NCBI GenBank assembly: GCA_036925085.1 | Contig: JAUPFP010000003.1 | Span: forward strand, 3,587,001 to 3,651,000 | Source of the DNA: Brachycybe producta | Lineage: Eukaryota; Arthropoda; Diplopoda; Playtdesmida; Andrognathidae | DNA length: 64,000 bases | Direction: 5' to 3' | In this document: piece by piece, positions 32,301-35,300 of the stretch | How the letters are laid out: every line of letters begins with the position of its first letter | How positions within the stretch are numbered: position 1 is the first letter of the stretch | The notes under the pieces: generated by a model | The model's database searches: none | Told to the model about the DNA's origin: nothing | Seen by the model: the letters and a program-made list of their open reading frames with translations, nothing else | Made by a program: the position numbers and the translations under genes

Positions 32301-35300
32301 CACATTGCACTTTGAACCATCAAAATTGGACAATTTTAAATATGAAAAATAAACATATTGCCGCCGCGACTGTGGCGCATTTTAAAAATTAACGTTTCTT
32401 CTTTAACATTGGGGTCTATGAGGTTCAATAGAAAAACGATGCTAGCGTTCTTTGAGTTTTTGAGTTTTTGAATCTGAAATATTTTTCAAGATTCGCGGGA
32501 TTCGAGGATTCGAATGGCCCATCATCCCTAGTTAAAATTGAAAGAAATTTGAAATGTGCCTATGGTGGTGGAAATGTGTGTTTTTGTATATGGTTGTGTT
32601 TTCAGAACAGGAAGCCGCATTTCAACCTAGGAACGTTGTAGTTCACTTGCAGAAGGGCATTAGAGACTTTTACAATCTTCTCGAAGAGCTCGGAAGGTAA
32701 GAATCCGAAATGGAGTTTCTCCAAGAAAAAAAAAGGACCAAATTCCTCGAGAAAGAGAGATGATATACTGTAAACAAAAAAATAACAAATGTTTGTAACT
32801 TTCATTAAAATTGTTGCAACTTCGAAACTCTTTAAAAGATCCTAAAACAAAAACAAAAAAAGGTGGAGGAATTAACAGTTTTTTTTAAAAAAATTAATCC
32901 TTGTTAACAAACGAACCCGTGGTGGACACGAAACTTGTTTCCTCGTAACTCACTTTATCCTAATTCTTGTTTGGTGGTGGTTTTGTGTGTGGTGTTTGTT
33001 TTCTGCTCGCAGACCTCGAACCCTTTTTTCATCCTCGAGACGTAAACATTCGAAGGGAAACCGATGTTCGTGATTTCTTTGATCTACACGAGGAAATGGG
33101 GAGGTAATAAAATGTAGTCCAGGACTTTCGGAACCGCTCTCTCTCTGTCGCTTTCACTAGCTCTCTACCTCGTGCTGATGGAGCGATCATTATTATTAGG
33201 GCACGGATTTTTATGCAAATATCTCTCATGCAAAAATGAGGAGCTTTTTTTGATGCAATTTTTTTCAGGAAACAAAACAAAAAAACCGAATCCTGCAAAA
33301 TTTAAAAGCTGCAAATGTTTAATTAAAGTGCAGCTTCCTTACCATCCAACTCACCTTGCTCACCTACTCGAACCGATTTTTATGAAATTTTGAACATATA
33401 TCTAGAACTAAACAGGTGTCAGGTCGTGACGATCGAAGCCCGAATTTTGAAATTTCATCTGTGTCCTGAGATATCCGAGGTCAAAGGCCATAATGCGCCA
33501 TAGTCTATGAAGAAAATCATTTTTTTTTTTAAAAAATAAACTTTTGTGTGCAAAATAAATAGAATGTTTGCGTTTCTATTTTAAGAAACGCATTGCAATT
33601 TGCCATTATTTCATCTTAGTATTAAATAGAGTGGCACCTGAATCAGCATCTCTCGGCAATCGGTCTAAAACATGTCAGAATCGAGCCTCTAACCAGCCTT
33701 TTTGATTAGAAAATGAAAGCATAATTTACAGTTGCTGAAATGATGTTGGTTATTTCACAATTGGTATACTTGAAGCCATAGATTGAGAAACATTTTTAAT
33801 TGATATTAATGCATAAAAATCCGAGTCCTAATAATTAATAGAAAATGTTGCATGACTTTTCCAGAAAATACTTACAATACTTACGCAATATTATCCTCTT
33901 ATAATGTTTCCATTTTCATGTAGTTTTTGTAGCTATTTTTTCTGTGCTGTGTGAGCTTCTATGCTGTCTCTCAATAGAAAATTCTGTCAAATAACAAATG
34001 TTCTTAGGTGTCAAAAGCATGTCTAGCATGTCTGCACTTTCGAAAAAGTTGTTGCCAAAAAAAAAAAAAAAAATAACATCATATTTAGTTGAAATTCAAG
34101 AAATAAACGTAGCACTTCAACTTCAACTTGAATCCTCCAAACAGGGTGCCAAAATAAATATCTATTTTTTTATTGATGAAAGTCTTCTTTGCATATTTTT
34201 TGAACAGGAATTTCCCATTTTGGAACCAAGCTGTCCAAAATGGACACTTTGTATTTGAACTTCAATTTTAAACCCTCTCAAAAGGGTTCCAAAACGGGAA
34301 TATCTATGATTAAATGTAGTTAAAGTAGGTTTTTTTTTCTATGTTGATACCTTGGTTTAGAGGGTTCAAGTTGACATTCAAGTGTCTTTAAGTTTTTTTA
34401 TTTCTCTCTCTTGAATTTACACTCAAAACTCTTGGTTATTCGGCGTTTTGAAAATGAAATTAAAGCTTTAAAAATAAATACATTTTCATGGCAACTATTT
34501 AATTAAACTTTTCGTTTACTCTTCTAGTTTATAAAATACCTTTATTTACTTTGTAATATTGCTTCTGAAATGTGAAATAAACAAGAGTTCGATTTGATTG
34601 TTCTTTCTCTCTTTCTCTCTCTTCTTTGCATATTTTATAATTTTCAAAAAAAAAAAATGTCAGAAGTTTGTTAGAAACTAGAAGAATCAAGAAAACAAAT
34701 ACTTTTTGTTGTTGTGACTCAGCTACTTGTTCTAGTTTCTAACACACTTTCAATTTCTCTTTAGTGCTTTAACACGAACCACTTTTTAGTGGTCGAGTTA
34801 GACTGCAAAATGTAGTCGGCATGTCGCTCGTGTGCAAACATCTATCGTCTTTCATTAACAGGACAATGCCAACCCACTGCCCAGCCACCGTGCGACAACA
34901 TTTTGCAGTCGAAATCGACCACCAAAAGTAGTCTTGTGTCACTGTGTGTGTGTGTATGCCGAGGCTCATGGTGTTGCTCTTCTAAAACGCAGAATTAACG
35001 AGAGAAATACAAAAATATTATGTTTTGATATTTTACAGAGGAAAGTTTGGAACCGTTTTCCGTTGTTCGGAAAAGACTTCGGGAAAGACGTTAGCCGCCA
35101 AATTCATCTCGACCACTCGGACAGAAGACAGGAAGGATGTGGAACGTGAAGTGGAAATCATGAGGTGTTTGCAACATCCGAGGCTTCTACAGCTGTACGA
35201 TGCATTCGACGACGGCAAGAAGGAGATGTGTCTCGTTCTAGAACTGTACGTTATACGGAAACATACACGAGAAATAGACTCAAATTCAAGAATATAACGT

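Follow-up and report, generated by a model that had tools for sequence, protein, structure and literature searches.

The window analysed here is a stretch of 64,000 nucleotides (C3:3587001–3651000 of a 295-Mb genome), and positions below are window positions unless another location is named. Its forward strand carries a kinase gene for which we traced a tentative first coding exon and six downstream exons. The tentative first exon, E1 (29292–29325), has an in-frame ATG and a consensus donor (CAG/gtgagt) and would supply 11 residues plus 1 nt; it is short and without homology support, and another upstream exon could replace it. The common exon at 35039–35245 encodes the rest of the Gly-rich loop (GKFG) and the AAK lysine and runs through LEL. 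It is followed by exons 36532–36673 (IEGGELFER ... HLDMK) and 37348–37547 (PENVLC ... DFGLAR ... APEVV ... CYV), and then by exons 38286–38438 (LSGLSPFMG ... LLLKDR) and 39084–39129 (15 residues), all four of them kinase exons. The tail exon at 40206–40338 contains a 27-residue calmodulin-site-like stretch, identified visually and from its resemblance to the tail of an MLCK gene on C18; a 17-residue stretch resembles the C18 tail by eye, and the calmodulin site is putative. The gene continues past this exon, where tracing stopped.

Between E1 and the common exon lie two further predicted forward-strand exons, A (32606–32696) and B (33013–33103). Both are 91 nt long, encode 30 residues + (R), enter in phase 1 and leave in phase 2, and have GT-AG boundaries with a cag acceptor in each and the donors gtaaga (A) and gtaata (B). 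They are spaced 316 nt apart. The upstream donor (gtgagt) lies directly after 29325, and the exons end in EELG (A) or EEMG (B) + R, continued as GKFG in the common exon that begins at 35039. The exon coordinates, 91-nt lengths, matching phases and 316-nt gap given in the original prediction were all re-derived from the sequence, and its count of about 12 of 29 residues in common became 12/30 residues (50/91 nt) on recounting.

Over the traced exons the frame is open with A or with B, giving 335 residues in each case. Joining A to B leads to a stop after 61 residues, within B, and skipping both exons leads to a stop after 29 residues. Apart from this frameshift, we saw nothing that would bar productive double inclusion: the A–B intron, 316 nt long with GT-AG ends, is unremarkable and shows neither crowding nor a splice-type mismatch. 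Its branch-point candidate CTAAT (32960–32964, forward strand), 49 nt from exon B, is one of four matches to a loose branch-point consensus. A frameshift on double inclusion is one of the three control ways listed in PMC5740500. The earlier claim that the frameshift enforces exclusivity holds in that the A+B product stops inside B, but a frameshift does not block the splicing itself. An ordinary intron would also suit a different gene model in which A and B are normally joined, a reading made highly implausible by the stop inside B.

Both predicted isoforms matched the Pfam Pkinase profile (251.3 bits for isoform A and 249.5 bits for isoform B), with the match starting at profile position 1 (A) or 2 (B). 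The top solved structure for both was human MYLK4 (2x4f; 322.0 bits for A, 318.1 bits for B), followed by twitchin and DAP kinases. The catalytic motifs GRGKFG, AAKFI, HLDMKPEN, DFG and APE are intact by eye. By these matches the gene is an MLCK-type kinase (DMT class), its kinase domain being closest to those of MLCK/DMT kinases.

Ig and Fn3 domains before the kinase were not found by tblastn (cut-off 0.5) with eight domain queries from the C18 MLCK and a twitchin-like gene on C21 in the window plus 20 kb upstream and 10 kb downstream, a search that could miss divergent domains or remoter exons. Four matches, three in the window (E 0.18, 0.43 and 0.46) and one in the upstream stretch L023 (0.13), were all short, and none was accepted as real; the upstream stretch L025 gave none. 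The suggestion that the swap might alter a linker to upstream domains is thus unsupported, with no Ig/Fn3 domain found in the window or 20 kb further upstream: nothing seen there could be joined by such a linker, and the tentative N-terminus comprises 11 residues. Upstream of the kinase, a long S/T/G-rich open frame with repeated TxxYRT-like stretches by eye (13647–15692, forward strand) may be a separate gene for a secreted or mucin-like protein. Elsewhere in the window, the open frame at 57255–57680 includes 30 residues with a PHD finger-like Cys/His pattern (by eye), and the stretch at 58098–58951 is repetitive and open in several frames on both strands. In the wider genome, COX1-like copies at C1:12697416–12698753 and C17:4027703–4029047, besides that on C442, are perhaps nuclear copies of mitochondrial DNA; the C442 COX1 can be read with the invertebrate mitochondrial code.

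A tiny E1 and the lack of detected upstream domain exons would fit alternative promoters, under which A and B would belong to transcripts with different first exons and the choice would be made by transcription start. Two in-frame ATGs, at 32554 and 32590, precede exon A with no intervening stop, which would allow a transcript begun within the intron to have A as its opening exon. Exon B, by contrast, has no in-frame ATG between the preceding stop and the exon and so needs splicing from upstream; both exons have canonical acceptors, which first exons do not need. We consider alternative promoters unlikely, and even with different starts the coding outcome would be the same swap.

The similarity between A and B is well above chance, their alignment score being reached by none of 100,000 residue shuffles. 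We scanned the whole window in a splice-aware manner for open AG...GT segments of 70–112 nt in the right phase (620 on the forward strand and 453 on the reverse). With A as query, B was the top non-self match (score 66, runner-up 30), and A was likewise the top non-self match of B (score 66, runner-up 36). No third exon copy was found by splice-aware scans of 29326–35038 or of the whole window. Exon GC is 0.451 in both A and B, and that of the three flanking introns is 0.286–0.331. Codon positions 1, 2 and 3 are identical at 18, 21 and 10 of 30 codons, and the same codon is used for only 3 of the 12 residues in common. Third positions are near random and first and second positions are not, which argues for an old pair kept by protein-level selection; the duplication looks old, with both copies apparently preserved by such selection. 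Searches of the whole genome with A or B plus common sequence (55 aa each) gave seven and five places, respectively, at E ≤ 1: exons A and B (the query from either one also picking up the other weakly), the common exon and the C21 gene, together with weak places on C6, C10, C24 and C12. These searches missed the C18 counterpart exon, so divergent copies elsewhere are not excludable by them.

The genome has at least two MLCK-type kinases, the window gene and the C18 gene (L021, C18:1696001–1705900). The latter has, by eye, Ig- and Fn3-like exons directly upstream of its kinase and a calmodulin-type tail. When compared using a 183-residue kinase query from the window gene, it is 43% identical across the first 69 residues and 64% across the final 120. 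Its counterpart of A and B is a single 94-nt exon with the same phases; a splice-aware scan of L021:4001–5600 found no second copy. In the C21 gene, labelled twitchin-like by eye, an intron, its junction likewise read by eye, follows EEIG at the same place and in the same phase as in the window gene. Because the exon phases in C18 and the intron place and phase in C21 match, the exon boundary as read from these genes predates the split of the window, C18 and C21 genes. The duplication was seen solely in the window gene of the three, the scans for a further copy having covered the window and 4001–5600 of L021. With its one exon, the C18 gene shows that the pair is not a general feature of this genome's MLCKs.

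That the C18 MLCK manages with one exon would also suit a reading in which A or B is a dying or unused copy. Both exons are open, with canonical splice sites, and keep kinase-like residues (RDFY/RDFF and EELG/EEMG). Codon-position constraint persists despite near-random third positions, and a dead copy so old should have lost its frame or splice sites, all of which makes a decaying exon very improbable.

The two acceptors share a GU-rich element, GGTGGTGG-N3-TGTGTGT, at 32564–32581 and 32973–32990 on the forward strand, with the first base 42 nt before exon A and 40 nt before exon B. In RNA form it reads GGUGGUGG-N3-UGUGUGU at -42 (A) and -40 (B). The pattern was picked after inspecting both copies. 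An in-register motif with 15/18 matches arose in 9/2,000 dinucleotide shuffles and two runs of at least 7 on one diagonal in 30/20,000; a common run of 8 alone was frequent by chance (131/2,000). The exact pattern occurs at 13 places genome-wide, and the reversed-pattern control at 19. Plain local alignment of the pre-acceptor tracts gave a score of 16, which lacks significance because 291 out of 5,000 random pairs (first-order) did as well. That score was reached by 1051 of 41,815 pairs of other acceptor candidates in the window, many of them repeat copies, and by three single sites against A and three against B. The flanks after the A and B donors show no similarity (1347/2,000 as good).

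Counted as UGUG/GUGU words within 62 nt before the acceptor, A has seven and B six. Among 1339 YAG sites in the window, 19 have at least six such words per 62 nt, A and B included, and two of the 19 (32610 and 32630) share the tract of A. A pyrimidine-filtered count left 290 sites, three of them with at least six words and B among these; the filter drops the site of A. The C18 exon has no UGUG/GUGU words in its preceding 62 nt. The common element is a candidate splicing element, modestly above chance. According to PMC5224494, recombination engaging the upstream intron gave rise to most of the invertebrate tandem exon duplications that are spliced in a mutually exclusive way, so the common GU tract may just have been carried along in the duplication.

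Other features of these introns were recorded. A GT-rich run at 34940–34992 precedes the common exon at 35039, and the YAG site at 34992 has 13 UGUG/GUGU words per 62 nt. A palindrome at 31730–32454 (arms of 144 and 95 nt, 91–92% complementary) stops some 150 nt short of exon A. Part of it, 236 nt long, belongs to a dispersed repeat with 2908 first-look candidates in the genome; all 40 candidates scored matched, namely itself and 39 others at 92–95% identity. For competing RNA pairing in intron 1, both acceptor tracts beat shuffles (0/26 as good) at a place (29926–29985) overlapping short inverted repeats; in the A–B intron 17/60 and in the downstream intron 18/52 shuffles were as good, and competing RNA structures were not taken as evidence.

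Taken together, A and B are probably a tandem duplication within an MLCK-type kinase gene whose two copies are mutually exclusive exons. They have similar length, compatible splice sites and phase, peptide homology and a barrier to productive double inclusion. Length, splice-site and frame compatibility, and homology are the published search criteria for mutually exclusive exons in PMC3228551, in which 0.56% (90/16180) of non-exclusive exons on a fly chromosome share these features too. The original prediction of such a pair at the entry to an MLCK kinase domain stands as the best reading and fits the testable sequence criteria; its upstream-domain linker is unsupported, and its frameshift would make double inclusion non-productive without blocking the splicing. 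Under the preferred reading, the spliceosome would connect the upstream exon with either A or B, and that exon in turn with the common one, and double-inclusion and skipping products would be destroyed by nonsense-mediated decay. Splicing factors specific to a tissue or stage would make the choice between A and B, perhaps via the GU-rich acceptor tracts.

The exon end coincides with the first glycine of the Gly-rich loop (LG/R-GKFG), and alignment with MYLK4 and twitchin places the swapped residues at the N-terminal tail and strand beta1. Against twitchin 1koa, the local score was 73 for B, aligned over its whole length, and 49 for A; against twitchin 1kob it was 63 for A and 55 for B, and against MYLK4 over the exon 40 for A and 28 for B, scores that rest on 30 residues and do not establish descent. 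The whole isoforms scored 296.3 bits (B) and 286.0 bits (A) against 1koa. The swap would exchange the N-terminal tail, beta1 and the first glycine of the loop. The other catalytic motifs are common to both isoforms, so the swap would not be expected to create or abolish activity; it should instead tune how the tail docks on the N-lobe or hinge, or else affect autoinhibition, the binding of partners or where the kinase is localised.

The N-terminal linker (NL) of twitchin and titin kinase packs on the hinge, and the NL and C-terminal tail together silence the kinase, as described in PMC10129394. Exons A and B occupy the NL position; unlike those kinases, the window gene has a calmodulin-site-like tail and no Ig/Fn3 neighbours that we could find. 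We know of no exon swap in the NL of twitchin or titin kinase. Since the isoforms do not differ elsewhere in the traced protein, comparing them would amount to a natural experiment on the role of the N-terminal tail in MLCK/twitchin-type kinases.

The Drosophila Stretchin-Mlck gene offers a comparison for the splicing. Proteins of the CELF family bind GU-rich elements, and one of them, Bruno1, has control over a fly Strn-Mlck isoform; the event concerns isoform R (exons 23 and 25) and is muscle-type-specific, and direct Bru1 targets are not known in the account of PMC11081514. Both are MLCK-family genes, the splicing of Stretchin-Mlck depending on a factor of a GU-binding family and the window gene having GU-rich tracts. 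Stretchin-type/long MLCKs have Ig and Fn3 domains before the kinase, whereas none were found for the window gene in the window and 20 kb upstream. Bruno binding at the GU tracts of the window gene is a guess. A fuller but rather unlikely scenario is a muscle-type switch, in which a CELF/Bruno-like factor would read the matching GU-rich elements at -42/-40 and pick the kinase N-terminal tail, one version of it twitchin-linker-like, yielding two MLCK-type kinases that differ in basal autoinhibition or force response around the same calmodulin-controlled core.

In a literature search covering few subscription journals we found no such exon pair in an MLCK, which is no proof of novelty. The closest parallel is human FYN, a Src-family kinase whose exons 7A and 7B (so numbered in PMC5224494), giving FynB and FynT, are mutually exclusive tandem exons for the pre-kinase linker and an N-terminal part with the ATP site, as reported in PMC9741552. 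FYN 7A/7B and, as predicted, A/B are alike as mutually exclusive, tandem-duplicated exons at the kinase entry. The FYN exons include the ATP-binding site, whereas A and B cover only beta1 and the first loop glycine, and no SH2/SH3 module was seen in the window gene. FYN belongs to another kinase family, so the two pairs presumably arose independently. The pair is best regarded as a well-founded prediction, for a new gene, of an event whose kind is already known; if true, it would be another case beside FYN in which the kinase entry (tail, beta1 and first loop glycine) became the swappable part, with a contractility-family kinase as the one affected.
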